This document shows, piece by piece, positions 28,790 to 63,162 of a stretch of 64,000 nucleotides of DNA; the stretch's first letter is position 1; every line of letters begins with the position of its first letter. Under the pieces are notes generated by a model. It saw nothing but the letters and a program-made list of their open reading frames with translations, was not told where the DNA came from and did not search any database. The DNA is from Flavobacteriaceae bacterium (GTDB lineage Bacteria; Bacteroidota; Bacteroidia; Flavobacteriales; Flavobacteriaceae): the NCBI GenBank assembly GCA_947452415.1, contig CANGCT010000002.1, positions 1 to 64,000 on the forward strand. The letters run 5' to 3'. The position numbers and the translations under genes were made by a program.

Positions 28790-29266
28790 ATGAAACTTTC
28801 CGAAATTAAATCCGAATTAAAAAAACTTACTCAAATTGCATTTCAATTGCCCGATGGCAAATTGGTGCCGAGTCATTTTCATGTTACCGAAGTTGGTATA
28901 ATAACCAAGCATTTCATTGATTGCGGTGGTGTTATTAGGATTGAAGAAGTGGTAAATTTCCAACTTTGGGAAGCCAACGATTTTGACCATCGTTTGCATC
29001 CCGATAAATTGCTTCACATCATCGAATTATCCGAAGAAAAACTGCAAATCCCCGATTTAGAAATTGAAGTCGAATTCCAAATGAAAGAAACAATAGGTAA
29101 ATTCGACCTGCAATTGGACGGAACCAACTTTCAATTACTTTCTAAATTAACCGATTGTTTAGCAAAAGATAAATGTGGTATTCCAATAGAAAAATTGAAA
29201 GTGCAACTAGGCGAGTGGAAGGTAAAAGAAAATTCAGGTTTTACACCATATTCAGGTTGTTGTTAA
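28790..29266 (+). CDS. DUF6428-like protein associated with ars operon
   Basis: Position between arsR and phosphatase; MKLSEIKSELKKL...VPSHFHVTEVG...SGCC; family name from memory. Confidence 0.7.
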   Translation: MKLSEIKSELKKLTQIAFQLPDGKLVPSHFHVTEVGIITKHFIDCGGVIRIEEVVNFQLWEANDFDHRLHPDKLLHIIELSEEKLQIPDLEIEVEFQMKETIGKFDLQLDGTNFQLLSKLTDCLAKDKCGIPIEKLKVQLGEWKVKENSGFTPYSGCC

Positions 29267-29282
29267 TTTTATAATTTAAAAC

Positions 29283-29891
29283 ATGTATAAAGACTTATTA
29301 AATACTGTAGAAACAATTTCTAATATCTCCGTTTCGGAAGAACGTAAAGAAGTATTACAACCTCTAATTGATTACATCCAAAACAAAGTAAATACCAATC
29401 AAGAAATTCGATTGAATTTCATTTGTACCCACAATTCTCGAAGAAGTCATTTGTCTCAAATATGGGCACAAACTATGGCTTTCCAATTTAAAATTGATAA
29501 GGTTTTTTGTTATTCTGGGGGCACCGAGGCTACAGCTATGTTTCCAAAAGTTGATGAAACTTTAGTTAATCAAGGATTTCAAATTCAGAAATTAAGTCAA
29601 GAAAACAATCCGGTTTATGCTGTGAAATTGGATGAAAATCAGGCACCAATTATTTGTTTTTCTAAAACATATAGTGATGCTTTTAATCCAAAAAATAACT
29701 TTGGAGCCATCATGACTTGTAACAATGCCGACGTAGGTTGCCCAATGGTTTTTGGAGCAGAAGCCCGATTTCCAATAAAATATAACGATCCTAAAGCATT
29801 TGACGGTACCGATTTAATGAGCGAAAAATATGCCGAACGCAGTTTGGAAATTGCATCCGAAATGTATTTTGTATTTTCTCAAATTAAATAA
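29283..29891 (+). CDS. low-molecular-weight phosphatase-type arsenate reductase / protein-tyrosine-phosphatase
   Basis: FICTHNSRRSHLSQIWAQ CX5R loop; downstream of arsR, upstream of ACR3. Confidence 0.85.
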   Translation: MYKDLLNTVETISNISVSEERKEVLQPLIDYIQNKVNTNQEIRLNFICTHNSRRSHLSQIWAQTMAFQFKIDKVFCYSGGTEATAMFPKVDETLVNQGFQIQKLSQENNPVYAVKLDENQAPIICFSKTYSDAFNPKNNFGAIMTCNNADVGCPMVFGAEARFPIKYNDPKAFDGTDLMSEKYAERSLEIASEMYFVFSQIK

Positions 29892-29904
29892 ATTCCAATA
29901 AAAA

Positions 29905-29936
29905 TACTTAATGAAACTTAATGCCTTAATTGTTTA
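29905..29936 (+). repeat. CTTAATG spacer repeat (copy b)
   Basis: TACTTAATGAAACTTAATGCCTTAATTGTTTAA before the acr3 ATG. Confidence 0.5.
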
Positions 29937-29939
29937 AAA

Positions 29940-30971
29940 ATGAAAAAACACCTTAATTTCCTCGACCGATACTTAACTATTTGGATATTTCTAGCAATGC
30001 TTATTGGTGTTGGTATAGGATATTTCATTCCAAATTCGGCTAATTTTATCAATTCATTTTCTACCGGAACTACTAATATGCCGTTAGCAATTGGTTTAAT
30101 AGTAATGATGTATCCGCCATTGACTAAAGTCGATTTCAGTAAGATTTCGTTAATTTTTAAAAAACCCAAAATTCTTTTGGCTTCCTTTATCATCACATGG
30201 GTTGTGGGACCTTTTTTAATGTTTTTACTTTCTATTTTCTTCCTTAAAGATTATCCAGAATACATGACCGGATTAATCATTATTGGTTTGGCTCCCTGTA
30301 TTGCAATGGTAATCGTTTGGAATGAACTAGCTGAAGGAAATCGAGAATTAACGGCAGGTTTGGTTGGGATAAATAGTTTGTTGCAAGTATTATTTTTTAG
30401 TTTGTATGCCTATTTTTATCTAGAAATCATGTTGCCGTTATTCGGAATTAAAGGATTAACTTTGAATATTACAATTGTTCAAATAGCAGCCACAGTTGGT
30501 ATCTACCTCGGAATACCATTTGCTTTAGCAGTATCCAGCCGATTTTTAATAAAGAAATTCCTAGGTGATAAATGGTTCAATCAAAAGTTTTTACCTTTTG
30601 TATCCCCAATAACCTTAATCGCTTTGCTGTTTACAATCGTGGTAATGTTTAGTTTAAAAGGCGAAATGATTGTGCAATTACCGTTGGATGTTATTCGAAT
30701 TGCAATTCCATTAGTAATTTTTTTCGCTATAATGTTTTTACTAATGTTCTTTGTAGGCAGAAAAGTAGGTGCCGATTATCGGGATAATGCTGCAATTTCA
30801 TTTACTGCTACAGGAAATAATTTTGAGTTAGCGATTGCGGTTTCTATTGGGGTTTTCGGTATCAATAGCGGACAAGCTTTTGCAGGAGTGATTGGGCCTT
30901 TGGTAGAAGTGCCTGCATTAATTACTTTGGTTAATGTGGCCTTTTGGCTTCGAAAAAAATATTACAAATGA
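29940..30971 (+). CDS. acr3: ACR3 family arsenite efflux transporter
   Basis: MYPPLTKVDF, GLAPCIAMVIVWNELAEGNRE, TATGNNFELAIAVSIGVFGINSGQAFAGVIGPLVEVPALI. Confidence 0.94.
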   Translation: MKKHLNFLDRYLTIWIFLAMLIGVGIGYFIPNSANFINSFSTGTTNMPLAIGLIVMMYPPLTKVDFSKISLIFKKPKILLASFIITWVVGPFLMFLLSIFFLKDYPEYMTGLIIIGLAPCIAMVIVWNELAEGNRELTAGLVGINSLLQVLFFSLYAYFYLEIMLPLFGIKGLTLNITIVQIAATVGIYLGIPFALAVSSRFLIKKFLGDKWFNQKFLPFVSPITLIALLFTIVVMFSLKGEMIVQLPLDVIRIAIPLVIFFAIMFLLMFFVGRKVGADYRDNAAISFTATGNNFELAIAVSIGVFGINSGQAFAGVIGPLVEVPALITLVNVAFWLRKKYYK

Positions 30972-34417: not shown

Positions 34418-34990
34418 TTAAATCAAAAATATCCTTTCAATTGTCCAATACAACGCTACGCATCCTATTAAACTAGAGATTGGGTAAACCACTCGTTCTT
34501 TGTACCAAATTTTGTGTGCGAACCATTTGCTAATTAAAAAATAAGCTAATAATAAAACCATTATTTGAGCTAATTCAACTCCAATATTAAATGAAATTAA
34601 GGAGGTAAAAAACTGTTCTTTAGGAATTCCGATTTCTTTTAAAGCGGTTGCAAAACCCATTCCGTGGATTAAACCAAATCCAAAAAGGATTAACAATCGG
34701 TACGGATTTACTTTGCTATGAATAATATTTTCTATAGAAGTAAAAAGTATTGAAAGCGCAATTAAAGGTTCAATATAATTGAAGTTTGGCATCAATATTC
34801 CAGATGCTGCTAATCCTAAAGATAGACTATGAGCCAATGTAAAAACCGAGCATTGAATCACTACCGATTTTAACTTAGAATTTAAAAAGAAAATACTTAA
34901 GATAAAAAGAAGGTGATCAAAACCATACGGAAGAACATGAGTAAATCCTAATGCGATATACTGCTCTATAGTATGGAGATAATTCATCAT
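34418..34990 (-). CDS. HupE/UreJ family membrane protein
   Basis: GFDHLLFILSIFFL, FTLAHSLSLGLA, GLIHGMGFATALKEIG, SFNIGVELAQ. Confidence 0.87.
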   Translation of the reverse strand: MMNYLHTIEQYIALGFTHVLPYGFDHLLFILSIFFLNSKLKSVVIQCSVFTLAHSLSLGLAASGILMPNFNYIEPLIALSILFTSIENIIHSKVNPYRLLILFGFGLIHGMGFATALKEIGIPKEQFFTSLISFNIGVELAQIMVLLLAYFLISKWFAHKIWYKERVVYPISSLIGCVALYWTIERIFLI

Positions 34991-36598
34991 TTAATCTTTA
35001 ACCAACTTAAATGTAGTACTTGTTTGGTCTATTATTTTTAAGAAATAGATGCCATTTGCTAAAGTTGAAAAATCTTGATTTTCAATAGATTTTCCTTTAA
35101 ATATGAGTTGACCTAAATTAGAATAAAGTTCGTAATTTTCATTTCCAGTATAGGATTTTAAATTTATTTTAAAATGAAACGGATTTGGAAATAGTTTCAT
35201 TTCATTTGTTTCAAAAGTAGAAGTATCGACCGAAAGAAGCGGATTGCAATAGGAAGTTCCTCCAACCAAATTGGTCATTTCACTGCATAAATAGCTGTAA
35301 TTAGAACTTTGAGTAGGAGTAAGGGTTCCCAATAGTAAATTTTGATTGTTGGTTTCTGCAGGGTTATTGGTTAAATTGAAAAACTTTTCGGTTCCATCAT
35401 CAAATTTCATCAATTTATAATCTGCATTTCTCATTGCTTTTCCATCTCCTGAAGTTGGTGTTAGTTTAAAAATTTCAGTAAATTCCCAAGGTCTTACTGA
35501 AGTAGCTTGGTTAGATAATATTGGCAATAAACTATGGCTGTCTACATTTGTTGTTGGAATTTGACTTTGCCAATTAGTATCACCAAAAAGTTCTAATATT
35601 GTAGCAAATAAATCGGTAGTGTTCACTAATGAATTGTTAGTTCTATTTGGATTTACTACATCTGGACCAGAAATAATCATCGGAACAGTAACTCCACCTT
35701 GATAAATGCTTCCTTTTGAAGGATTGCTTTGTGCCACCAAAGAATCATCACCATTGTCGCCAATGAAAATAATATCGGTAGTATCCCATTTCCCAGAACT
35801 AATTAAATAGTCAAAAAAGCGCCCAATTTCTTTGTCCATCGCCTCAGTCATTGCCTGAAAATAAGGAACCGGATTGGCCGTAATATCTGCTTGCGTTCCC
35901 GATAAACCAGTATTAGTAATCAAGTTGGCAGGGGGCAAATGATAAGGAGTATGTGGTGCATTAAATGCTAAATATAAAAAGAAAGGTTTTGTTGTAGGCT
36001 GACTGTTAATATAAGCAATGGCATTATTAACATTTTCAGTTGTGGCATAATTGGTACAAGTTGAACTTACGCCATTAGTAATTTTTGACCAATTATAAAA
36101 TCCAGTAACTAATTGACTAGGTTGTCCTAATGCTCCAGTTAAACTTCCTTCATAGTGATCAAATCCCATTGTAGTAGGGTAGTTGTAACCTATTGGAGCA
36201 AAAGTTGTTAAGTGCCATTTCCCAATACAGGCTTTGGATATTCCGTTTGGGGAATAGATGTTTAGTACCTTTGGAATTATGTTTTCATTGATGCTTAATT
36301 TATTGTTTCCACCATCAACTACATCGCCCACACCAGTTCTAAAACTATACCTACCAGTTAAAATTCCAGCACGAGTTGGTGAACACAATGGATTAGACCA
36401 TGCATTGTTAAAGACAATGCCTCGAGGCAAAAGACGTTTAACATTTGTTAAATTGACAACATTGGCCGCATGATCGGGATAGATGTCACAATAATCTTTA
36501 CCTAAATCATCGGCAATAATTAAAACAACATTTCTTTGTTGAGCATAATTAATAAAACTAATAAGAAATAGAACAACAAGGAAATTTTTATTCAGCAT
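34991..36598 (-). CDS. sulfatase, secreted, T9SS C-terminal sorting domain
   Basis: VVLIIADDLGKDYCDIYPD, CSPTRAGILTGRY (formylglycine motif CxPxR), C-terminal LFPNPFHFKINLKSY...GIYFLKIID. Confidence 0.94.
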   Translation of the reverse strand: MLNKNFLVVLFLISFINYAQQRNVVLIIADDLGKDYCDIYPDHAANVVNLTNVKRLLPRGIVFNNAWSNPLCSPTRAGILTGRYSFRTGVGDVVDGGNNKLSINENIIPKVLNIYSPNGISKACIGKWHLTTFAPIGYNYPTTMGFDHYEGSLTGALGQPSQLVTGFYNWSKITNGVSSTCTNYATTENVNNAIAYINSQPTTKPFFLYLAFNAPHTPYHLPPANLITNTGLSGTQADITANPVPYFQAMTEAMDKEIGRFFDYLISSGKWDTTDIIFIGDNGDDSLVAQSNPSKGSIYQGGVTVPMIISGPDVVNPNRTNNSLVNTTDLFATILELFGDTNWQSQIPTTNVDSHSLLPILSNQATSVRPWEFTEIFKLTPTSGDGKAMRNADYKLMKFDDGTEKFFNLTNNPAETNNQNLLLGTLTPTQSSNYSYLCSEMTNLVGGTSYCNPLLSVDTSTFETNEMKLFPNPFHFKINLKSYTGNENYELYSNLGQLIFKGKSIENQDFSTLANGIYFLKIIDQTSTTFKLVKD

Positions 36599-36600
36599 GG

Positions 36601-37806
36601 TTATTTTTTTATAAGTACTTTATAAGTATTTTTTATATTCTCACTAATTAGATTAATGAAATATATTCCGTCTGAAAATTCTTTAACATCAATCTTGTAC
36701 TCGTTTATAATCGATTTTTCTTCTTTGAAGAAAACAATTTTTCCAGAGGTATCGGTTATTTCTATTTGCACCAAATTCAAAACTTTCGGAAAATTTAAAA
36801 GTACATAATTCGATGCAGGGTTAGGATATATTTGAATGTTACTTTTCATTGAGAAATCTGAAGAACCTAAAACAGGATTTCCTCTTACACAAATTACATA
36901 ATTTGAATTAGTCTTGTTGTCATAAGTTGTTATTCCAAATTGTGTATTCCAATACCAAGCACTTGTTAAATTATTAGGATTAGGTAAAAGCGTAGTTGAT
37001 GACCAATAATTGTGAATACCTATGGTGCTAAAATAAGTAGTGTTTACAGAAGGATTAGAATTGCTTTCTATGTTTAAAGATTGTAATTCTTTGATGTTTG
37101 GTAACCGCCAATCTGTTGCATTTGCCAAAGTTAACCCTTCGGCATAAGTAATGGCTTGTTCCCAATTGAATAGGTTAGCGTTAGGCACTTTTTGCCAAAC
37201 CAATTGCGTTACATTATCGGTTACTGTACCATTGCCATTATCTGTAAAATGATTTGTTAAAATTGTTGGTGTTGTTATATCTCTAACTGCTCTTACATGA
37301 TAACTTTTAGTTCCTCCTGCACTGATGGTTTCTGCTTTGGGTTTGTTGCCAATTCCTCCGCCAGAATTAGTGCACCAAACTTTAGAAACATCACCAACTT
37401 GAAAGGTATTTGTCCACCAATATTCTGCACCAGTAGAAGGGAAATAAACTATATCCATTGCAGGATTATTTTTTTGTAAGTTAAGAATACTCATAGCCTC
37501 CATTGGGGTAGGTAATCGCCATCCCGAATAGCCACCAAGGGTAAGTGTGCTGCAATAGGCAATTGCATTTTCTATAGTCATTTCACCGCCGTCCGTTTGT
37601 TGCCACATTAATTGAGTCACATTATCTGTTATCGTACCATTTCCATTATTGGTAAACGAAGGCACATTGATACTGTAATCATGATCTTCGCCAACGGTGG
37701 AAGTATAACTAGTAGTTTGCCCAGTATCGGGCAATAAAAGGATGGATTTGGTTACACTTTGCGCAAAGGATATCGTTGACAGAAGAAGAAATGCTATTTT
37801 GTTCAT
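36601..37806 (-). CDS. DUF1566 domain-containing protein with T9SS C-terminal sorting domain
   Basis: Two copies of the DUF1566 pattern (NGTITDNVTQLMWQQ...GWRLPTPMEAMSI; NGTVTDNVTQLVWQK...DWRLPNIKELQSL); IYPNPASNYVLLNF. Confidence 0.9.
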   Translation of the reverse strand: MNKIAFLLLSTISFAQSVTKSILLLPDTGQTTSYTSTVGEDHDYSINVPSFTNNGNGTITDNVTQLMWQQTDGGEMTIENAIAYCSTLTLGGYSGWRLPTPMEAMSILNLQKNNPAMDIVYFPSTGAEYWWTNTFQVGDVSKVWCTNSGGGIGNKPKAETISAGGTKSYHVRAVRDITTPTILTNHFTDNGNGTVTDNVTQLVWQKVPNANLFNWEQAITYAEGLTLANATDWRLPNIKELQSLNIESNSNPSVNTTYFSTIGIHNYWSSTTLLPNPNNLTSAWYWNTQFGITTYDNKTNSNYVICVRGNPVLGSSDFSMKSNIQIYPNPASNYVLLNFPKVLNLVQIEITDTSGKIVFFKEEKSIINEYKIDVKEFSDGIYFINLISENIKNTYKVLIKK

Positions 37807-37808
37807 AT

Positions 37809-39032
37809 TTAATTTAGAATTAATTTTTTTGAAATTTCAAAATCTTCACAATTGATTTTCACAATATAAACACCAGATGAAAATTTAGAAGTTTCAATTG
37901 TTTTTAAATAGTTATTTGAACTAAAAATTAATTCTCCTAATAAATTATAAATTTGAATACTTTTTAGTTTGTCTTGAATGTTAGAAGTGGTTTCTATTTC
38001 AAATTGATTTTTTGCTGGATTTGGATAGATTCGAATTTGATTTTCATTTTCTAAATTTGTGTTATTAGATAAACTTGCTGCCACCGTTTTTCTAACAATC
38101 ACTTCATTATCTAAAATAACATTGGTGCTCCATATAAATTGAGCATCATTTGTTGGATTATCAAAAATATTTGTAAAATTGGTATATGCGGGTTTATTGT
38201 CAACTCCAATTGTAGCATTAGAATATAAAGTAGCAGCTGGCCAAGAACTATCATCAAATGTTACTTGAGTCCAATTTGCAGGTCGTGCCCAATGTAAGCC
38301 ATAATAATTATTGCCAGAATTGCTATCAGCAGTACTACAATTTCCAGATAAGCGTAAAGAACCGTTTTCTGTTGGACAAGTTAAATCCATAATTGGAGCA
38401 GTATAAAATGTTTGTGCTTTCCAATCCGAACCTGTTTTCGCAATTATTGAATTATTCAAGTCTTTAAAAACAGCGACCATTCCACCATCTCCACAATGGA
38501 AGCTATATGCACCGCTAGTTTCTGCTCCAACACCTAAGCGTTCTTCCCAATCTACCAACAACATTGCAATTGTAAAAGGTCGATTAACCTTAAATCGAAC
38601 AATATTTGAATTAAATTGAGTATAAGGAACATTGTCTTTGCCAACTTGTACTCCATTTACATACATTTCAAAATAATTGTCTGAAAAAATATATGCTGTT
38701 ATTATTTCTCCATTAGTATCAACTGTAACTATATCAGAACCATTTAATGCAGCTAATGCATTAGTTTCATTAGCATAATTATGACCATTACAAATATTGT
38801 TTAAATCGGATGCAAAAGGAAAAGAAGTATTGGAATAATTAGTTATTGCAGGTACTGTCCATATGGAATTGTCAATTGCTGTAATTGTTCCTTCAGCAGA
38901 AATTCGACCACCAGAACAAGTATATAAATTTGATATAGTAGTAGTAGCCAATCCATGAGTCACGGAAGCTGTTCCAGTGTATTGAGCAATACTAGATATT
39001 GAATACAATACTAATAAGTTTACTATTTTCAT
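37809..39032 (-). CDS. secreted protein of unknown function, lectin-like (F5/8-type NWTQVTFDDSSWPAA) with T9SS domain
   Basis: Signal peptide; WARPANWTQVTFDDSSWPAATLY; IRIYPNPAKNQFEIET. Confidence 0.75.
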   Translation of the reverse strand: MKIVNLLVLYSISSIAQYTGTASVTHGLATTTISNLYTCSGGRISAEGTITAIDNSIWTVPAITNYSNTSFPFASDLNNICNGHNYANETNALAALNGSDIVTVDTNGEIITAYIFSDNYFEMYVNGVQVGKDNVPYTQFNSNIVRFKVNRPFTIAMLLVDWEERLGVGAETSGAYSFHCGDGGMVAVFKDLNNSIIAKTGSDWKAQTFYTAPIMDLTCPTENGSLRLSGNCSTADSNSGNNYYGLHWARPANWTQVTFDDSSWPAATLYSNATIGVDNKPAYTNFTNIFDNPTNDAQFIWSTNVILDNEVIVRKTVAASLSNNTNLENENQIRIYPNPAKNQFEIETTSNIQDKLKSIQIYNLLGELIFSSNNYLKTIETSKFSSGVYIVKINCEDFEISKKLILN

Positions 39033-39035
39033 TTA

Positions 39036-40640
39036 TTATTTTACTAATAGTTTTTTAGTTATTTGTGCATTTGAAAATTGAAATTTTACAAAATAGGTGC
39101 CAGAAGCTAAGTTTTTTATATCAATATTTGATTTAAAACCATCTGTTTTTAAAATCAAATCTCCTTTAATTCCATATATAGCAACGTTTTGGATGTCATT
39201 TTCACTACTATCAGATCCAAAATTAATTTGCAGAATATCTTTTGCTGGATTAGGATATAATGTAATTGCATTATCCAATGCAAAAACATTGTTTGCTAAT
39301 GGAACCGTACATTGTGTGAAACCATTATAATTTGTAGTTGTTGTTCCAGATGGTGTTACATAATTAAAAGTATAAGTTGAACCGCTCCAACTAAAATTTG
39401 TTGCATATCCAGGAGTTCCATTTAAAGTATAAGAAAGGTTATATCCATTATTATTTGTATTAGCAACGCAGGAAGTTATAAGTGCGCCTGAAAGAGGTGT
39501 CCAGTTTTCATTTCTAACTGGATGAGCAGCTGCTTGAGGAATCAATTGATAGGTAGAGTCTTCAGTTACTTGTCCTACAAAACTTCCTATCATATAAGGC
39601 GCAGTTGAAGTGCCGTGGTAATGATATACACCATTAGTTCCTATATGACCGTGATTAGTATCTAAAGCGGTCATTGGAGTTCCATCAGGCTCTAAATTAC
39701 CATAAACAGCAAATCCATCAAGTGCAAATGCACACGGAAGGTTTGTTGTTGTTTGTCCTAAAGTGTATAAATGAATAGGTGCGGTATGGTAATGATAGTC
39801 ATCTGCACGACCACAATGACCTCCATAATTATCTAATTGACCATCTGTATAGGAATCTACTCCAGTATTTGTATGGTAATTAAAAATAGGTACACCATTA
39901 GCTGCAATAGCAATAGCCCCACGCGTAAAATGTACGTTATCAATTAGTGTTGGAGTTGCAGCAATTACAGGGTTTAAAGGAATACTCCAATGGTTGGCTC
40001 CAATATAACATTGCGGGTTGGGTACTTGTTGTTGCCAACCATGATTGGATATTCCAACCATCATAGTATGGTTTGGAATTCCTTTGCTTTCTACATAAAA
40101 ATAATTATTATCCCATGATGTATGAACGTTTGGAATGAATGGAATAAAAGCAGAATTTACAAAGTTAGGATCAGTAGTGGTAAGTAATTTTTTGCCAAAA
40201 CTAAATAAAGTCATCACTAAACCAGCAAAAAGTATTGGAACTAAATATTTTATTTTTTTTCTTTCTGCGATTTTGAAAATACATATCCCAAAAACCAATA
40301 AAAAAATAACAATCAGTAAAGATTTTATTAAGAAAGGAGAATTATTTTCCGACTTTTTTACTGAAGGAATAGAAGTATTTAAATAAATAATAGCTTCTTC
40401 TCTTTTCTTTACATACGCTTGATCAGCATCTGAAAGTGATTCTAAAGGAACATTAATAATTCTATTTTGCGCATCTTCAATAGATACTAATCCATTTTTT
40501 AATTTACTAAAAGATCCGTCAATAAAAGTATTATCCTTTTGAATAGACCAATGTCTTAATACAATTTTTTCGTAATTTAAAGTATGCGAAAACATATAAC
40601 TGTTCAACATACAGACTAGAATTAGGATGATTTTTTTCAT
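39036..40640 (-). CDS. YHYH domain-containing protein with N-terminal SHD1-like segment, two TM-like helices and T9SS domain
   Basis: ADDYHYHTAPIH, NGVYHYHGTSTAPYMIG; SHD1-like FIDGSFSKLKNGLVSIEDAQNRIINVPLESLSDADQAYVKKR; LYPNPAKDILQINFG. Confidence 0.85.
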   Translation of the reverse strand: MKKIILILVCMLNSYMFSHTLNYEKIVLRHWSIQKDNTFIDGSFSKLKNGLVSIEDAQNRIINVPLESLSDADQAYVKKREEAIIYLNTSIPSVKKSENNSPFLIKSLLIVIFLLVFGICIFKIAERKKIKYLVPILFAGLVMTLFSFGKKLLTTTDPNFVNSAFIPFIPNVHTSWDNNYFYVESKGIPNHTMMVGISNHGWQQQVPNPQCYIGANHWSIPLNPVIAATPTLIDNVHFTRGAIAIAANGVPIFNYHTNTGVDSYTDGQLDNYGGHCGRADDYHYHTAPIHLYTLGQTTTNLPCAFALDGFAVYGNLEPDGTPMTALDTNHGHIGTNGVYHYHGTSTAPYMIGSFVGQVTEDSTYQLIPQAAAHPVRNENWTPLSGALITSCVANTNNNGYNLSYTLNGTPGYATNFSWSGSTYTFNYVTPSGTTTTNYNGFTQCTVPLANNVFALDNAITLYPNPAKDILQINFGSDSSENDIQNVAIYGIKGDLILKTDGFKSNIDIKNLASGTYFVKFQFSNAQITKKLLVK

Positions 40641-40712
40641 AATTTATGATTTATGTTTTTTAGATGCCATTAATATAAAATTCTTGTACAATTTACTTAT
40701 TTTTTTCTTGAG

Positions 40713-42452
40713 TTACCTTTTTAATAGTAATTTTCCAGATTTTACTTCTCCGTTTTCTCCCGAAATTTTATAAAAATAGGCTCCATTTATGGCATCACCA
40801 CCACCATTGTTAGTACCATCCCAAATAACTTGGAATTTTCCTTCATTCACAAAGTTTCCATTTATTAGTTCTTTAACAATTTGTCCTAATTCATTATAGA
40901 TAGTTATCGAAATATTCTGAGGAGAATTCAAAGTAAAAGCAATAGTTGTTTCTTTAGAAAAAGGGTTAGGATAGGCAATTTCGTCAGCATAATTGCTGTT
41001 CCAAATTACAGCAGAATTAGTACTTAGATTATAACAATTACTCAATCCGATGGTATAGGTAGCTGAAATATCTTTATTGTGTCTAGTTGCTGATTCATTT
41101 GCAGGTAAATAGGCACGAACATAATCTACTTGGAGTCCAGTTCCTGTAACAGTTACTCTTAAATGACCAGAATTTCCTACAATTTGTCCTGCAAGATATC
41201 CATAAGTTGCAGCTTGTGACGGATAATTAAAATTTGGTAAACTAGGTTGTGGCGTTTCTTGATATACTAAACAATCTTTATCTTGCTTAACATACAAATG
41301 GTCGTGCCCGTGAAAAAATATATTTACATGATTTTCTGTTAATAAATCTTTAATAGGTTTATACCATCCTGGTCTATAAGTTGCAAAACCAGGAGTTACA
41401 CCATCAGAATTCATGCCTCCCCATTCGTATTTATCAGCATATTCAGTACCTCCACGACCTTCTGGATCGCCACCAACAATTTGATGCGAGAAAATGAATT
41501 TGAATTTAGCGTTACTGTTTTCCAAAGTAGTTCTAAGCCAATTGTATTGTGTTGCTCCCAGTGACCAATACCAACCGGTATTTGCATTTGCATTTGGTTT
41601 CGGATTTGTGTTCCAATAAGGATCAATTACAAGAAATAAAGCATCTCCCCATGTCCAAGAATAATATGCTTTTCTTTGTCCAGGCGTATTATTGGGTCCT
41701 ACAAAATTTTCTGTTGTACTATCACCAGAATAAAATCCATCAGGCCCAGGATTTAAAAAATATTTTTGTCTTTCTTGGGTATTCCAAATAGCAATATTAT
41801 TGGCAGTCCCATCTAAATTCCAACCTGCTTCGCCTTCATGGTTTCCTAACACATTAAATAACGGAACAGAATGGCAAATGGTTTCGTAATTTGAGCGAAG
41901 TAAATTACATCGGTATCCAATTGTATCATGTGGAATTGTATTTGTAGTAAGGTTTTTTAATTTATCCGTCATTAAAAAATCTCCTAAATCAATCATGAAA
42001 TCTGGGTTATCTTCTAATTGGTTTTGCAAACATCTTTGATATAATGCAACGTTTGTAGACGCATCCATATGTGGATCGGCTTGAACTACAAATGTATACG
42101 GGCTTCCAAGTTGCCTTTGTGTGTGAAAATAATGCTCTGTTCGAGAAGTAAAATTTATATCTCCCGGATTTCTATGAACTACTCTATAATAGTATTTAGT
42201 ATCAGGTTGTAAACCATTAATTGTTATTTCTGCAGGTTCATTTGCTGCAAAGGTTTGCCAACTTGTTTGTGATGGATAGACACCACTTGTAGCACCATAT
42301 TGCACTGCCATTTCTGCCGCTGTTGAAAAGAACATATTAATTGAAATACCAGTATCTCTTGGTTTTCCCAATATTTCTTGTCTAGAAACAGTTTGAGCAT
42401 TAATAGTAAAAACAAATGATAATGTTAAAATAAATATATAATAATTTTTCAT
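40713..42452 (-). CDS. metallophosphoesterase with FN3-like N-terminal domain, T9SS domain (FlgD-Ig type)
   Basis: VVQADPHMDAS, DLGDF, LGNHEGEAGW, FFHGHDHLY; AYPNPFSKETTIAFTL...GAYFYKI. Confidence 0.92.
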   Translation of the reverse strand: MKNYYIFILTLSFVFTINAQTVSRQEILGKPRDTGISINMFFSTAAEMAVQYGATSGVYPSQTSWQTFAANEPAEITINGLQPDTKYYYRVVHRNPGDINFTSRTEHYFHTQRQLGSPYTFVVQADPHMDASTNVALYQRCLQNQLEDNPDFMIDLGDFLMTDKLKNLTTNTIPHDTIGYRCNLLRSNYETICHSVPLFNVLGNHEGEAGWNLDGTANNIAIWNTQERQKYFLNPGPDGFYSGDSTTENFVGPNNTPGQRKAYYSWTWGDALFLVIDPYWNTNPKPNANANTGWYWSLGATQYNWLRTTLENSNAKFKFIFSHQIVGGDPEGRGGTEYADKYEWGGMNSDGVTPGFATYRPGWYKPIKDLLTENHVNIFFHGHDHLYVKQDKDCLVYQETPQPSLPNFNYPSQAATYGYLAGQIVGNSGHLRVTVTGTGLQVDYVRAYLPANESATRHNKDISATYTIGLSNCYNLSTNSAVIWNSNYADEIAYPNPFSKETTIAFTLNSPQNISITIYNELGQIVKELINGNFVNEGKFQVIWDGTNNGGGDAINGAYFYKISGENGEVKSGKLLLKR

Positions 42453-42463
42453 CTTAATTTAGT

Positions 42464-44179
42464 TTAGTGTTTGATCATTATCTTTTTAGTTAATCTTGAA
42501 TTTTCGTCTATCTTTAAAAAGTAAACTCCATCTGGAATTTTAGATATATCTATTTCATTTGATTCAAATAATAGTAATGATTGTCCAAGAATATTTGTTA
42601 TTTCATAATGATGGTTATAAGTATTATCTGTAAAATAAATATTTAATATATCGTTAGCTGGATTTGGAAAAGCAATAACCTCCGATTTTGTACTAGCTAC
42701 TTCATTTGAATTTAAGGCGCAAGTACCAACTGTATACGAATAGCCAATTTCTCCATTTGTATGACCTGCAGAACCATTTGTACCAGGAATGTAAGATTTC
42801 ACATAATCTACAGTAACACAATCTGGCGTTACATTTACTTTAATATGTCCCGTGCCATCTAAAGTTACATCGGTATATGCGGTTGCATTTGCAGTATAAC
42901 CAAAGGTATAAGTAGCATCGCTAGGCATAGGGACTTCTTGATAGACAACTCCATTTAATTGTTCTTTTGCGTACAAATGATCGTGTCCTTGAAAGAAAAT
43001 ATCTACCCCTGTATCTTCAAATACTTTTTGAATTGGTTTTCCCCAACCAGGACGGTATTGATCAAATTTATATTGATTGTTTTGCATTCCTCCCCATTCG
43101 TATCCAGTTGCCCAAGCACTACCTCCGCGACCTTGACCCCTAGAATGATGTGCAAAAACAAATTTATGAGTTGCAGTGCTATTTTCTAATACTCCTCGCA
43201 TCCATAAATATTGAGCTTGCCCTAATGTCCAATCCCAGTTTTGTGGCTTAGATCCATCCGCAGGAGTTGCACCAGGAAATATTTCGGTTCTATACACGTC
43301 TAATACTACAAAAAGAGCGTCGCCCCAAGTCCAAGCATAATAATTTTCAGGCATGCCAATTCCAAAATCTTCGACAGTACTGTTTCCTGAATAAAAATTA
43401 TTTGGAAATGGGTTTGGATAATAATATTTTCTCCATTGTGTTCCCCAAACTCCAATTCCGTTTGGAGCAACTGGTAATGAGTTGGTTGAAGTGGTATAAA
43501 TTCCATTTACATTAAGAAAATAATCATTTTCTCCTTCGTGATTTCCTAAACAAACATAAAATGGAATCGAAGTGCATACAGCTCCAAGATATTCTCTGTA
43601 ATTTTTATGCAAAATATCCATATCATTACTACTAGTGACAGTAGGGGCGTGGTCATCACCAAATATATCTCCTAAGGATAGCATAAAATCAGGATTTTCG
43701 GATGCTTCATTTGTAAGAGTAGTTTGATACATTGCTGCATTTGAGTAGTTACTATATAAGTGTTCATCGGCTTCTACCGTAAATGTAAAATTACTTCCTG
43801 CAGAGCGCTGGGTTTGAAAATGGTATTCTGGAGTTGTTGAATAAGTAGATGCCCCAATAAGTTTATATTGCATTCTATAATAATATTTAGAATTTGGCAA
43901 TAATCCAGTTAAATCAATTTCATCAGGAACATTTGAAGCGTTAGTATAAGTAATGGATGTGTTTGTGTAATTCCCGGTTTGTAAACCATATTCTAAAAAA
44001 TAGTTCACATTTTGATCAAATAAGATACTTGCAGTAATTGAAGTATTAGTTGGTCTTCCTAAAATAATGGATTTTTGTTGTGCCTGATTTTTTTGATAGG
44101 AGATACAGATAAGTCCAATTAAAACTATTTTATTTGTCCATTTTTTTGCTAAATAAAATAAAGAATAATTATTTTTCAT
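42464..44179 (-). CDS. metallophosphoesterase paralogue with T9SS domain
   Basis: VEADEHLYSN, SLGDIFGDDH, LGNHEGENDYF, FFQGHDHLYAKEQ; AFPNPANDILNIYF. Confidence 0.92.
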   Translation of the reverse strand: MKNNYSLFYLAKKWTNKIVLIGLICISYQKNQAQQKSIILGRPTNTSITASILFDQNVNYFLEYGLQTGNYTNTSITYTNASNVPDEIDLTGLLPNSKYYYRMQYKLIGASTYSTTPEYHFQTQRSAGSNFTFTVEADEHLYSNYSNAAMYQTTLTNEASENPDFMLSLGDIFGDDHAPTVTSSNDMDILHKNYREYLGAVCTSIPFYVCLGNHEGENDYFLNVNGIYTTSTNSLPVAPNGIGVWGTQWRKYYYPNPFPNNFYSGNSTVEDFGIGMPENYYAWTWGDALFVVLDVYRTEIFPGATPADGSKPQNWDWTLGQAQYLWMRGVLENSTATHKFVFAHHSRGQGRGGSAWATGYEWGGMQNNQYKFDQYRPGWGKPIQKVFEDTGVDIFFQGHDHLYAKEQLNGVVYQEVPMPSDATYTFGYTANATAYTDVTLDGTGHIKVNVTPDCVTVDYVKSYIPGTNGSAGHTNGEIGYSYTVGTCALNSNEVASTKSEVIAFPNPANDILNIYFTDNTYNHHYEITNILGQSLLLFESNEIDISKIPDGVYFLKIDENSRLTKKIMIKH

Positions 44180-44239
44180 AAACTTTTTTTTGGTTATAAT
44201 AGTTGTTAAGACTTTAAAAATGAAATATGGTTTAATTGT

Positions 44240-44279
44240 AAAAAAAAATCCTTTAAAAATTTTACTTTTAAAGGATTTA
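44240..44279 (-). terminator. trxB terminator
   Basis: Minus strand AAATCCTTTAAAAGTAAAATTTTTAAAGGATTTTTTTTT. Confidence 0.75.
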
Positions 44280-44299
44280 AATCTTAAACTGAGGAAATA

Positions 44300-45771: not shown

Positions 45772-47892
45772 ATGATTACAAATGCCAATTATAGATATAT
45801 AGATAGAGAAAAAAGTTGGTTAACTTTTAACGCTCGAGTATTACAAGAAGCTGCTGATGAAGCTGTTCCTTTATTGGATAGGCTTCGCTTTTTAGGAATT
45901 TTCTCAAATAATTTAGATGAATTCTTCAGAGTTCGCTTTGCTGCTATTCGGCGCTTAAGTTTGTCTGGTAAAACAGGAGAAAAAATTCTAGGCGGAATTA
46001 GTGCCCAACAATTGGTAAAAGATATTACCGCAATAGTTATTCAGCAACAATCCGAAAGTTTGAGAATACTTAGTATTATTGAAAAACAATTAGAAAAAGA
46101 AAATATCATAATTGTAAATGAAAATCAGTTATGCCAAGAACATCAAGACTTCGTTCATGAATTATTTATTGAAAAAGTAAGTCCAGAACTAGTCACTATT
46201 ATCCTAAATGATTTAGCAGAATTTCCTTTATTAAAAGATACTTCAGGATATTTGGCTATTAAATTAGTCATGAAAACGGATGAAAAATCCAAAGTATTAG
46301 GATTAATAAAACCCAAAAAAGAGATTCGGTATGCCATTATTGAAATACCAAAAAACATTAATAGAATTGTAGTACTTCCTTCTATTGGAGCCAAACAATA
46401 CATTATGTTATTAGACGATGTAATTCGATACAATTTAAGTAGTATTTTTAATATTTTTGATTACGAAAGTATTTCAGCACACATGATAAAAATTACTCGA
46501 GATGCCCAATTGGATATTGATAGTGATATGAGTAAAAGTATGTTGCAAAAAATTGCAACTTCGGTAAAAGATAGAAGAATAGGGGAGCCTGTTCGTTTCG
46601 TTTATGATAAAACTATTGATAAAGATACCTTGGATTTTTTCTTGAATAGAATGAAAATTGAATCAACCGACAGCATTATTCCCGGCGGAAGATACCATAA
46701 CCGTAGAGATTATATGAATTTTCCAAATTTAGGAAGGTTTGATTTATTATACCAACAAAAAAAACCTTTGGATGTTTTAGGATTGTCATTTGAAGGAAGT
46801 ATTTTACAAAAAATATCCCAAAAAGATTTCCTCATTTTTGCGCCCTATCAATCGTTTTCTTATTTAATAAAATTTTTGAGAGAAGTAGCTTTAGATCCTA
46901 AGGTAACAACTATAAAAATTACATTATATCGTTTAGCCAAAAATTCTCAAATTATCAGTTCTTTAATTAATGCTGCTAAAAATGGAAAACGAGTGGTGGT
47001 TCAAATTGAACTTCAAGCACGTTTTGATGAAGCTAATAATATTTCCTATGCCGAACAAATGCAACAAGAAGGAATTGAACTAATTTTTGGAATTAAAGGA
47101 CTTAAAGTGCACAGTAAAATATGCGTAATTGAAAGACTTGAAGAAAACAAGTTAAAGCGCTATGGGTTTATTTCTACTGGAAATTTTAATGAAGCAACAG
47201 CTAAAGTGTATACGGATGTTACTTTATTAACTAGTCATTCACAAATATTAAAAGATGTTACTAAAATTTTCGATTTTTTTGATATCAATTATAGATTGCA
47301 TCGATATAAACATTTAATAGTTTCACCACATTATTCGCGAGCTAAATTCTATAAACTTATTGATAGAGAAATTCATAATGCCATGGCAGGAAGACCAGCT
47401 TATATAAATTTAAAAATGAATAGTCTTTCAGATTTTGCAATGATAGACAAACTATATGAAGCTAGTAATGCTGGTGTGAAAATGAAATTACAAATTCGTG
47501 GAATTTGTTCCTTAATACCCGGAGTAAAAGGTATGAGTGAAAATATTGAAGCAATTAGTATTGTTGATAATTTTCTGGAACATTCTAGAGTTTTTATATT
47601 TTGTAACGACGGTAATCCCGACGTGTTTATATCATCTGCCGATTTTATGACTAGAAATATCGATGGTAGGGTAGAAGTAACATGTCCAATTTATCAAGAA
47701 GATATTAAAAAACAACTAATTGATACCTTTGAAGTTGGCTGGAAAGGAAATGTAAAAGCGAGATACCATTCAGAAAAACTAGATAATAAATATAGAATTA
47801 GAAAAGAAAACGAACCAATTTTTAGAGCCCAACAGGAAACCTATAATTATTATCAAAACCAGCAGGAGACTACTAGTGAAAATATGTTTTAG
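45772..47892 (+). CDS. ppk1: polyphosphate kinase 1
   Basis: REKSWLTFNARVLQEA, SNNLDEFFRVRFA, DVLLxxP-like DFLIFAPYQSF, GLKVHSKICVI, STGNFNEATAKVYTD. Confidence 0.96.
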   Translation: MITNANYRYIDREKSWLTFNARVLQEAADEAVPLLDRLRFLGIFSNNLDEFFRVRFAAIRRLSLSGKTGEKILGGISAQQLVKDITAIVIQQQSESLRILSIIEKQLEKENIIIVNENQLCQEHQDFVHELFIEKVSPELVTIILNDLAEFPLLKDTSGYLAIKLVMKTDEKSKVLGLIKPKKEIRYAIIEIPKNINRIVVLPSIGAKQYIMLLDDVIRYNLSSIFNIFDYESISAHMIKITRDAQLDIDSDMSKSMLQKIATSVKDRRIGEPVRFVYDKTIDKDTLDFFLNRMKIESTDSIIPGGRYHNRRDYMNFPNLGRFDLLYQQKKPLDVLGLSFEGSILQKISQKDFLIFAPYQSFSYLIKFLREVALDPKVTTIKITLYRLAKNSQIISSLINAAKNGKRVVVQIELQARFDEANNISYAEQMQQEGIELIFGIKGLKVHSKICVIERLEENKLKRYGFISTGNFNEATAKVYTDVTLLTSHSQILKDVTKIFDFFDINYRLHRYKHLIVSPHYSRAKFYKLIDREIHNAMAGRPAYINLKMNSLSDFAMIDKLYEASNAGVKMKLQIRGICSLIPGVKGMSENIEAISIVDNFLEHSRVFIFCNDGNPDVFISSADFMTRNIDGRVEVTCPIYQEDIKKQLIDTFEVGWKGNVKARYHSEKLDNKYRIRKENEPIFRAQQETYNYYQNQQETTSENMF

Positions 47893-47922
47893 TACAAACA
47901 AAATAATACCCAACCATAAGAC

Positions 47923-48813
47923 ATGATTTCAATAAAAAAATATGCTGCAATTGACATTGGTTCCAATGCCATGCGATTGCTAATAACCAACATAGTAGAA
48001 CAAGAAGGCAAAGAAACACAATTCAATAAATCGGCACTTATTAGGGTGCCAATTCGTTTGGGTCAGGATGCATTTACTGTTGGTGAAATTATTTCCGAAA
48101 ATATTGATAGAATGGTAGATGCAATGGATGCTTTTAGACTTTTAATGAAAGTTTATAAAGTTGATAATTACAAGGCTTGTGCAACTTCTGCAATGAGAGA
48201 AGCCTATAATGGAAAAGAAGTTGCAGCTATTATTAAAGAAAAAACTAAAATTGAGATTGAAATAATTGACGGAAAACAAGAAGCAGCTATTATTGCATCC
48301 TCTGACTTGCATAATTTTATTGCTACTGATAAAACATATTTATATGTAGATGTTGGTGGTGGTAGCACCGAATTTTCTCTTTTTGCAGATGGACAAATGG
48401 TGGCGTCTAAATCTTTTAAAAATGGTACAGTTCGATTACTTAATGACATGGTAAATGAAGTTGTTTGGCAAGAAATTGAAAAATGGATTACTACGAATTG
48501 CAAGCCATATGAAAATATTACCCTTATTGGTTCGGGTGGAAATATTAATAAGTTATTCAAACTTTCCGAAAAACAACAAGATAAACCCTTGTCTTTCTTG
48601 TATTTAAATGCTCAATACCAATATTTAAATTCTTTAACTTACGAGCAGCGCATAGCCGAACTTGGTTTAAATACCGATCGAGCCGACGTTATCATTCCTG
48701 CAACCAGAATCTATCTTAATGCTATGAAATGGAGTGGTGCCCGACAAATATACGTGCCTAAAATAGGACTTTCCGATGGAATTGTTAAGGCTTTATATTA
48801 TGGTACTATTTAA
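47923..48813 (+). CDS. ppx: Ppx/GppA family exopolyphosphatase
   Basis: AAIDIGSNAMRLLI, YVDVGGGSTEFSLF. Confidence 0.92.
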   Translation: MISIKKYAAIDIGSNAMRLLITNIVEQEGKETQFNKSALIRVPIRLGQDAFTVGEIISENIDRMVDAMDAFRLLMKVYKVDNYKACATSAMREAYNGKEVAAIIKEKTKIEIEIIDGKQEAAIIASSDLHNFIATDKTYLYVDVGGGSTEFSLFADGQMVASKSFKNGTVRLLNDMVNEVVWQEIEKWITTNCKPYENITLIGSGGNINKLFKLSEKQQDKPLSFLYLNAQYQYLNSLTYEQRIAELGLNTDRADVIIPATRIYLNAMKWSGARQIYVPKIGLSDGIVKALYYGTI

Positions 48814-61688: not shown

Positions 61689-62174
61689 CTATCCCCCAAT
61701 CTTTTTATCAAGATACTGTTGCAAAAGTTTTTTACTAAACTGTTCTTCTGCTTTTTTAAGTTTCAAAATTTTAGTAGAAGGTAGAATTCCTTTTAAATTG
61801 AAAACAAATTTCTTTTTCAGTTGGTATAATTCGTCTTCGGTACTTTCTATTTGAGTTAAAAGGGTTGCAGCTTCTTTCTCGGATAATTTATCAATAGCAT
61901 TGTTATCGGTTCTTTCTAGATAGGCTTTAAATTTTTGTTTTTTAATTTCTTGCTGTCTGTCTTCAAAGGCATTGAATAAAGGCCAAAACTTTGCTGCTTC
62001 ATCTGGAGTTAAATTTAACTCAGTAGTTATGAAAGCTACTTTTAATGCTTTTATTTTTTCCTTTTTTTCTTTAAAATGTTCTCTCATTGGCCCATTTTGG
62101 CCAAAAGAAGCAATAGAGATTAAGAATACAGAAACGAATAATAATTTATAATTTTTCATGTTATTTATTTTCAT
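61689..62174 (-). CDS. hypothetical exported protein, Spy/CpxP-like helical
   Basis: Signal peptide; ELNLTPDEAAKFWPLFNAFEDRQQEIKKQ (LTxxQ-like). Confidence 0.7.
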   Translation of the reverse strand: MKINNMKNYKLLFVSVFLISIASFGQNGPMREHFKEKKEKIKALKVAFITTELNLTPDEAAKFWPLFNAFEDRQQEIKKQKFKAYLERTDNNAIDKLSEKEAATLLTQIESTEDELYQLKKKFVFNLKGILPSTKILKLKKAEEQFSKKLLQQYLDKKIGG

Positions 62175-62595
62175 TGGTAATGTATTGTTCCATATTGGTA
62201 TTGTTAGAAAGTTCGTCTTCTAAGGCATCGTTACTAATTGAAGTAGTAATTTTTAATTTATCAATATCTTCTTGTTCTAACAAATTCAATATTTCATCAT
62301 CTGAAACCGACTTGTTTAGGGTAAGATAATTTTCAATTTCGGTAGAACTTATTTCTTCCTCCTCCTTATTTTGTAATTGATTTATAATAGGTAAAGATAA
62401 GGCTAGGACTAAAATTGCTGCTGTAGCCAAATAAATCCATCGTTTGTTACGAGTATTAATCGAAATTACTTTCGGTTCTTGTTTGGGTATTTGTTGCATT
62501 ACTTTTTCAGAAAAAGTATTAAAATATCCTTCGGGAATATGAAACCCTGTGGTTATTTTTTCGCTAGTCTCTATTTTAAAATCTTTCATATCCAT
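62161..62595 (-). CDS. hypothetical single-pass membrane protein, likely anti-sigma-type
   Basis: IPEGYFNTFSEKVMQQIP and one TM; between sigma factor and Spy-like protein. Confidence 0.65.
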   Translation of the reverse strand: MDMKDFKIETSEKITTGFHIPEGYFNTFSEKVMQQIPKQEPKVISINTRNKRWIYLATAAILVLALSLPIINQLQNKEEEEISSTEIENYLTLNKSVSDDEILNLLEQEDIDKLKITTSISNDALEDELSNNTNMEQYITNENK

Positions 62596-62619
62596 AAGAC
62601 AAAATTTGTTCTTAAAGGT

Positions 62620-63162
62620 TTAATTTGTTTTTAGGTATTCTTCAATTTTTTTAACGGCATGGTGGTACGACGCTTTCAAGGCTCCAACCGAAGTTCCTAA
62701 TATCTCCGAAATTTCTTCGTATTTCAGTTCTTCAAAATATTTCATCTTAAAAACAAGTTGTTGTTTTTCGGGCAATAAAACAATTGCTTTTTGGAGTTTT
62801 AATTGGATTTCATTTCCGTCAAAATACACATCCGATTGTAAATTTTCTACAATTTTAGTTTGCATTGCTTCGCTAGTAGTTCCGTTGCGCTTGGCTTTGT
62901 TGTTTATAAAAGTGATGGCTTCGTTAGTTGCAATTCGGTACATCCAAGAAAAAATTTTACTATCGCCTTTAAAGTTTTTTAAATTTTGAAATATTTTTAC
63001 AAATGTATTTTGCAATACATCATCCGTATCGTCGTGGTTGAGCACAATATTCCGAATAAGATTATACATAGGTTTTTGATAATCGCGCAAGAGTTTTTGA
63101 AACGCAACATTCTGCGTTTTCGGGTCTAACAACTCGTTTATAAAATCCTTTTCGTTTTGCAA
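62620..63162 (-). CDS. RNA polymerase ECF sigma factor
   Basis: MYNLIRNIVLNHDDTDDVLQNTFVKIFQNLKNFKGDSKIFSWMYRIATNEA; region 4 VFKMKYFEELKYEEISEILGTSVGALKASYHHAVKKI. Confidence 0.93.
   Translation of the reverse strand: MQNEKDFINELLDPKTQNVAFQKLLRDYQKPMYNLIRNIVLNHDDTDDVLQNTFVKIFQNLKNFKGDSKIFSWMYRIATNEAITFINNKAKRNGTTSEAMQTKIVENLQSDVYFDGNEIQLKLQKAIVLLPEKQQLVFKMKYFEELKYEEISEILGTSVGALKASYHHAVKKIEEYLKTN

Follow-up and report, generated by a model that had tools for sequence, protein, structure and literature searches.

What could a sulfatase, two phosphoesterases, a membrane permease and three secreted proteins of other families do together? This question is raised by a run of seven consecutive open reading frames (ORFs) on the minus strand (44179 to 34418) of a 64,000-nt stretch of contig CANGCT010000002.1 from a Flavobacteriaceae bacterium (GCA_947452415.1), hereafter called the window. 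The genome is a 2.89-Mb assembly in 183 contigs, and the organism was taken as a freshwater Flavobacterium. It is well supported that the genes belong to a co-conserved and co-regulated system. We further propose, with somewhat more confidence than doubt, that they are one arm of a metal-handling system which is secreted by the type IX secretion system (T9SS) and controlled by extracytoplasmic function (ECF) sigma factors, copper being the most likely metal.

Gene content of the locus

The run starts with MPE1 (42464..44179), a secreted calcineurin-type metallophosphoesterase with a purple-acid-phosphatase-like N domain, and MPE2 (40713..42452), a second secreted metallophosphoesterase (both Pfam Metallophos). 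They are followed by a YHYH protein (39036..40640), which contains a signal peptide, an N-domain, a transmembrane (TM) hairpin and the YHYH domain, and by LEC (37809..39032), whose family is conserved but not covered by a Pfam model and which is predicted to be mainly beta. LCL (36601..37806) has two Lcl_C (formerly DUF1566) domains, SULF (34991..36598) is an S1-type formylglycine sulfatase with a complete active site (Pfam Sulfatase), and HUPE (34418..34990) is a HupE_UreJ_2 membrane protein. The gaps between the genes are 11, 72, 3, 2, 2 and 0 nt. The Pfam and NCBIfam matches of these proteins lie above cut-off. The T9SS sorting domain TIGR04183 was found in all six secreted proteins (38-51 bits, cut-off 23), which are thus predicted T9SS type A cargo. 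Number and order of the genes, gaps, domains and secretion tails are all as described in the initial annotation, which was made from the bare sequence.

Conservation of the gene set in Bacteroidota

A scan of GTDB with the YHYH alignment found 572 relatives, and 80 loci were kept. They originate mainly from metagenome-assembled genomes labelled Flavobacteriales, Chitinophagales, Saprospirales and Sphingobacteriales; Chlorobiota and Ignavibacteria are represented by single records. Lake or pond isolate names are frequent, and several of the closest relatives are labelled Flavobacterium. In contiguous same-strand runs with YHYH, the most constant neighbour was LCL (62 of the 80 loci), followed by MPE2 (38/80), MPE1 (35/80), HUPE (30/80), LEC (29/80) and SULF (12/80); many of the contigs are short, which bears on these counts. 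Members of the gene set nearly all share the strand of YHYH. Among relatives added later, the full set in the order of the window is present at two Flavobacterium loci (L184 and L186), while L180 has all window genes except LEC and L060 consists of YHYH-LCL-SULF-HUPE. The set is modular, with LEC, SULF and HUPE present or absent at equivalent positions. A chance neighbourhood can be ruled out, since the same order recurs across orders of Bacteroidota. The suggestion of the initial annotation that these genes belong together is borne out by this survey, in which dozens of further genomes showed the set with unchanged order and orientation.

Metal-type partners and a second operon

Several genes which are absent from the window run recur next to YHYH. 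They encode an ECF sigma factor, a small anti-sigma-like protein and a Metal_resist (PF13801) protein (METRES), further a T9SS-tailed CueO-like multicopper oxidase (MCO) and an AhpC/TSA thioredoxin-like protein (TRX), and finally MbnH, MbnP (PF20243) and a second YHYH protein (YHYH2). MbnH was assigned by a TIGR04039 match below the equivalog cut-off. The copper ligands of MCO, the WxW motif of MbnP and the two haem (CxxCH) motifs of MbnH are intact. METRES also matches the LTXXQ and CpxP families, which reflects an overlap with the Spy/CpxP chaperones.

In Flavobacterium these genes form a separate operon, here called type B, in the order sigma, anti-sigma, Metal_resist, MbnP, (MbnH), oxidase, thioredoxin-like, (MbnH), YHYH2. 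The window organism carries it on contig C107. Hybrids between the two gene sets exist: one locus reads MCO-TRX-sigma-anti-sigma-METRES-YHYH-LCL-HUPE (L222), and two others have MbnP/MbnH together with YHYH and LCL (L093, L123). At L189 and L191 a sulfatase closes the type B operon and adjoins the gene for the formylglycine-generating enzyme (FGE); in the sulfatase tree, type B sulfatases fall within the Flavobacterium clade of type A sulfatases (support 99/98). Nine loci of other genera encode a MORN protein and the copper chaperone SCO1 downstream of the short YHYH protein, and L196 has the order sulfatase-YHYH-MORN-SCO1.

Among 397 Flavobacterium genomes, YHYH is present in 24 and the type B oxidase in 22; they are shared in 14 genomes with 1.3 expected (Fisher 2e-14), and sulfatase and type B oxidase are shared in 11 with 1.0 expected, figures which are inflated by common ancestry and lifestyle.

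Promoter motifs and transcription units

The upstream sequences yielded two ECF-like motifs. The class 2 motif, CARG-N17-RTCTAA, precedes the type B sigma gene, unit-starting YHYH genes and MCO. In the window it is found as CAAGAATTTTATATTAATGGCATCTAA at 40660..40686 (minus strand), in the 72-bp gap and 19 nt before the YHYH start, and it is also present at the C107 operon. Of these two sites, only that of C107 had contributed to the definition of the motif. Across 142 loci (2.19 Mb) we found 43 matches compared to 3 for the reversed pattern, although the pattern was partly derived from loci that were later scanned. At most 150 nt separate 30 of the 43 matches from a downstream YHYH, sigma, MCO, MbnP or LEC gene, and in other genera the motif was additionally detected upstream of genes for anti-sigma, CotH and EF-hand proteins. 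In the whole genomes G317, G407, G275 and G247, which contain 4-10 matches each, the motif stands before both operon types. The stricter form CAAG-N17-RTCTAA occurs four times in the window genome; two of these sites precede YHYH and the C107 sigma gene, and two lie elsewhere. Since the reversed control also gave four matches, the weight of class 2 in this genome rests on the positions and not on the count.

The two other sites (G000:C4:14508-14534 and G000:C8:42111-42137; L238, L239) resemble sites in other Flavobacterium genomes and have no obvious downstream partner. In loci of other Flavobacteriaceae (L061, L063, L065 and L071), we observed the order sigma-anti-sigma-Metal_resist-(CotH)-EF-hand-YHYH-MORN-SCO1, in which the class 2 motif recurs upstream of several genes. 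These YHYH-SCO1 loci are likely a related regulon.

The class 1 motif, TTAAACC-N16-GTC[TA], precedes MPE1 in 17 loci including the window, where TTAAACC-N16-GTCT is located at 44209..44235 (minus strand), 29 nt before MPE1. In the 142 loci it had 36 matches compared to 4 in the control. The count in the window genome alone was not significant (3 matches, 6 reversed), so that the support for class 1 lies in its conserved position across genomes. The window also harbours a generic ECF sigma gene (62620..63162, minus strand) with a downstream anti-sigma-like gene (62161-62595), and a class 1 motif (62597-62623) lies at a very short spacing to the start codon of the latter. The anti-sigma-like gene of this generic system is preceded by class 1 in five loci (the window, L061, L063, L065 and L071). 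The generic ECF sigma factor is therefore a candidate for reading the MPE1 promoter. A scan for sigma-70 promoters was uninformative, with fewer sites than in shuffled sequences.

Since MPE1 has a class 1 and YHYH a class 2 motif, the run probably consists of two units, MPE1-MPE2 and YHYH-LEC-LCL-SULF-HUPE, each under a different ECF sigma factor. A single seven-gene transcript is disfavoured by the presence of two promoter classes and by the promoter region in the 72-bp gap, and the one operon of the initial annotation is thus probably to be divided at the 72-nt gap.

The YHYH protein

The YHYH protein matches the PF14240 profile with 48.1 bits (curated cut-off 25). Its N-domain comprises approximately 80 aa and weakly matches SHD1. 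The TM hairpin, which lies between the signal peptide and the YHYH domain and is kept across relatives, consists of two hydrophobic helices (aa 108-124 and 130-146) connected by a basic loop. In three loci (L057, L058 and L059) the second helix is terminated by a lipobox-like cysteine, which suggests that this helix may be a second signal peptide. The chain resembles two exported parts, the first with N-domain and TM helix and the second with a signal-like helix, YHYH domain and T9SS tail.

In 88 relatives, seven histidines show no or almost no variation, and six of them form two H-x7-H-x-H triads (H275/H283/H285 and H332/H340/H342), which are predicted metal-binding sites. The AlphaFold2 model of aa 150-455 (pLDDT 94.1) had no match below 1e-3 among PDB folds (best E 0.089), and the YHYH profile retrieved only T9SS tails and one weak SLA1 match from the PDB sequences.

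Six proteins with a YHYH domain are encoded in the window genome. Two similar loci with a YHYH protein were noticed on contigs C58 (L208:10544-16134) and C3 (L209:9136-14724), and judging by eye the partners are a LytTR-like response regulator, a probable sensor kinase and a 780-aa probable carboxypeptidase-regulatory/TonB-type protein.

Phosphoesterases, sulfatase, glycan-binding candidates and permease

Both phosphoesterases have the features of the two-metal calcineurin-like family (DxH, GD, GNHE, H, GHDH). The MPE1 motifs D138-x-H140, N213-H214, H344/H345 and H399-D400-H401 are conserved in 38 relatives and the corresponding MPE2 motifs in 40 relatives; MPE2 had no match among PDB sequences at E<=0.001. 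In SULF, the active site is made up of D30, D31, C72, K127, H129, H216, D281, N282 and K295; these residues, among them C72 of the CSPTR motif, are conserved in relatives. With CxPxR, metal and catalytic residues, and the maturase FGE encoded in the genome, although away from the locus (E 4.6e-83), SULF is an S1 formylglycine sulfatase. The closest solved structures include sulfatases acting on glycosaminoglycans, carrageenans and similar glycans. Thus, the sulfatase and two-metal motifs named in the initial annotation could be confirmed.

LEC, at first labelled a lectin-like unknown, has no Pfam match of its own. The AlphaFold2 model (pLDDT 90.4) had no match below 1e-3 among PDB folds and weakly resembles a Pleurotus lectin and rhamnosidase sandwiches (E >= 0.016). 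The LEC profile matched only T9SS tails and, weakly, one lectin among the PDB sequences. At L057 and L058 a lipoprotein-like LEC stands beside a YHYH protein without T9SS tails, which looks like an anchoring swap for the same pair.

LCL shares the Lcl_C/DUF1566 domain with the Legionella adhesin Lcl, whose C-terminal region holds this domain and binds sulfated glycosaminoglycans (PMC11162425). It differs from this adhesin by its two tandem domains, its T9SS tail and the lack of collagen-like repeats. LEC and LCL probably hold anionic glycans.

HUPE matches PF13795 with 145.5 bits and contains the conserved His/Asp motifs of HupE/UreJ permeases, with H18, D25, H26, H54, H109 and E139 as invariant residues. 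A generic HupE paralogue on contig C70 is distinct from it. Urease or hydrogenase genes were not noticed near HUPE.

Neighbouring genes

A stem-loop followed by a T-run was found by eye downstream of trxB (44245..44280, minus strand), and it is absent from the list of the scan tool. Its location between trxB and MPE1 disfavours their co-transcription. By eye, genes for a polyphosphate kinase and an exopolyphosphatase-like protein were recognised nearby on the opposite strand (45772-48813); this placement is not retained in L180, L184 and L186 and seems incidental. Genes for an arsenate reductase-type phosphatase and an Acr3-like arsenite permease were also recognised by eye at 28790-30971.

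A putative metal-handling system

The conservation of the set, its partners and the promoter motif which is shared with the type B operon can be read from the genomes. From these we infer a model that includes metal binding, the identity of the metal, the direction in which it moves and the substrate of the enzymes. An extracytoplasmic metal-related signal would free the ECF sigma factor, and both the YHYH and the C107 units would be expressed. T9SS would place the multicopper oxidase, the YHYH proteins, LEC, LCL and the sulfatase on the cell surface. There, metal would be held by the YHYH proteins at their His triads and anionic glycans by LEC and LCL, and SULF together with the two-metal phosphoesterases would strip sulfate or phosphate groups from metal-holding polymers or ligands. 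HUPE, a His-containing membrane permease, would take the metal ion across the inner membrane.

The initial annotation had considered metal supply or sensing, and the involvement of metal is now supported much more strongly, by the partner genes and the promoter, than was possible at that time. MbnP/MbnH, CueO, SCO1 and FGE indicate copper, an assignment that we consider modestly probable. Regarding the direction, acquisition is favoured because copper represses CorA/CorB, the pair that corresponds to MbnP/MbnH in methanotrophs (PMC3621798), while CueO speaks for tolerance; we weakly prefer acquisition over detoxification. It is tempting to go further and to see in YHYH a new class of extracellular copper-binding proteins of unsolved fold which, with MbnP/MbnH, secreted MCO and HupE, form a widespread T9SS copper-acquisition system of Bacteroidota with a dedicated ECF sigma factor, outside the described siderophore or methanobactin pathways. 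This joint proposal is tentative, and at present we would sooner doubt than assert it.

Several observations speak against the model. The HupE family is tied to nickel and cobalt and not to copper (PMC4284471), and according to a 2013 paper no data connected close MbnP homologues with copper (PMC3621798). C132 is the sole conserved residue among candidate metal ligands of METRES; since there is no conserved set beyond this cysteine, metal sensing by METRES via conserved ligands is not supported. Given their different promoter class, MPE1-MPE2 may serve another purpose. Moreover, the inflated co-occurrence figures and the derivation of the motif pattern in part from the scanned loci have to be kept in mind.

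Among the alternatives, copper tolerance survives best. The secreted oxidase would convert Cu(I), YHYH and anionic polymers would sequester the metal outside, and phosphate released by the phosphoesterases would precipitate it. The sister operon encodes a CueO-type oxidase whose copper ligands are all present, which fits this explanation, and the sigma/anti-sigma/Metal_resist module resembles resistance regulators. However, among the genes recurring in the YHYH runs we recognised neither an efflux pump nor a P-type ATPase, HupE-type proteins are importers, and CorA/CorB are copper-repressed, as mentioned above. We regard tolerance as unlikely.

Still less credit can be given to the proposal of the initial annotation that phosphate and sulfate are removed from an exopolymer at the surface, here read as scavenging in which metals are mere cofactors. 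The complete active sites of the phosphoesterases and the sulfatase, the nearest solved structures of SULF and the binding of sulfated glycosaminoglycans by Legionella Lcl are in line with it. Yet the core of the system is YHYH-LCL, with SULF at 12/80 loci and the phosphoesterases in under half of them, transporters for phosphate or sulfate were not among the recurring genes recognised in the YHYH runs, and the common promoter motif ties YHYH-SULF to the MbnP/MCO operon. Because the recurring partners are copper or metal proteins and the ECF sigma/Metal_resist module, we do not favour the stripping of an exopolymer as the organising theme.

Similarly improbable is a general envelope-stress regulon, in which the ECF sigma factors would respond to surface damage or to T9SS cargo that has misfolded, the metal-type proteins being incidental: the overlap of Metal_resist with Spy/CpxP chaperones and the lack of conserved metal ligands in METRES would be explained, but not the repeated association with MbnP, MbnH, MCO and SCO1. 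Finally, FGE is a copper enzyme in its aerobic form and needs copper (PMC4505483, PMC12123546), it adjoins the sulfatase in L189 and L191, and the sulfatase moves between operon types, but that the copper operon serves to load FGE for activation of the secreted sulfatase, all other genes being ancillary, is very unlikely with most of the system loci lacking a sulfatase and FGE encoded elsewhere in the window genome.

Relation to known systems and significance

The proposed metal-handling system resembles several known ones in parts. In Cupriavidus, the ECF sigma factor, the small anti-sigma factor and the Metal_resist-family membrane protein of CnrHYX are encoded together; the same architecture was found here, but CnrX-type metal ligands are not conserved and the target genes are different. 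As in CueO/CopA copper defence, a CueO-like oxidase with all copper ligands is encoded in the co-regulated operon. However, it is T9SS-tailed and belongs to an ECF sigma operon with MbnP/MbnH, and a recurring export pump was not recognised. Secreted sulfatase and glycan-binding-like proteins are found together also in Bacteroidota polysaccharide utilisation loci, while a SusC/SusD pair or glycoside hydrolases were not noticed here on reading the ORFs, a SusC/SusD profile search not having been made.

A further relation is to the pairs MbnP/MbnH, CorA/CorB and MopE/SACCP: homologues of MbnP and MbnH are encoded in the sister operon and in the hybrids, and in methanotrophs the counterparts MopE and CorA are proteins of the surface or regulated by copper (PMC3621798). 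In comparison to such pairs, the system described here additionally has YHYH, Lcl_C and HupE proteins, a T9SS-tailed oxidase and ECF control; methanobactin genes were not noticed, and the window unit itself lacks MbnP/MbnH.

In the searched literature, which included few subscription papers, we found no paper on YHYH function, on YHYH/PF14240 in connection with copper, or on the gene set, in agreement with the view of the initial annotation that the system is undescribed. One diatom survey lists the YHYH domain. For YHYH proteins, which occur in bacteria and diatoms, we found no assigned function or solved structure, and our proposal gives them a concrete role that can be tested, together with partner genes, a regulator and a promoter. 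We know of no description of T9SS-based surface capture for copper. If the proposed model is true, Bacteroidota would possess their own T9SS-based system for metal capture at the cell surface, and sulfatase use would be tied to copper through the copper enzyme FGE.

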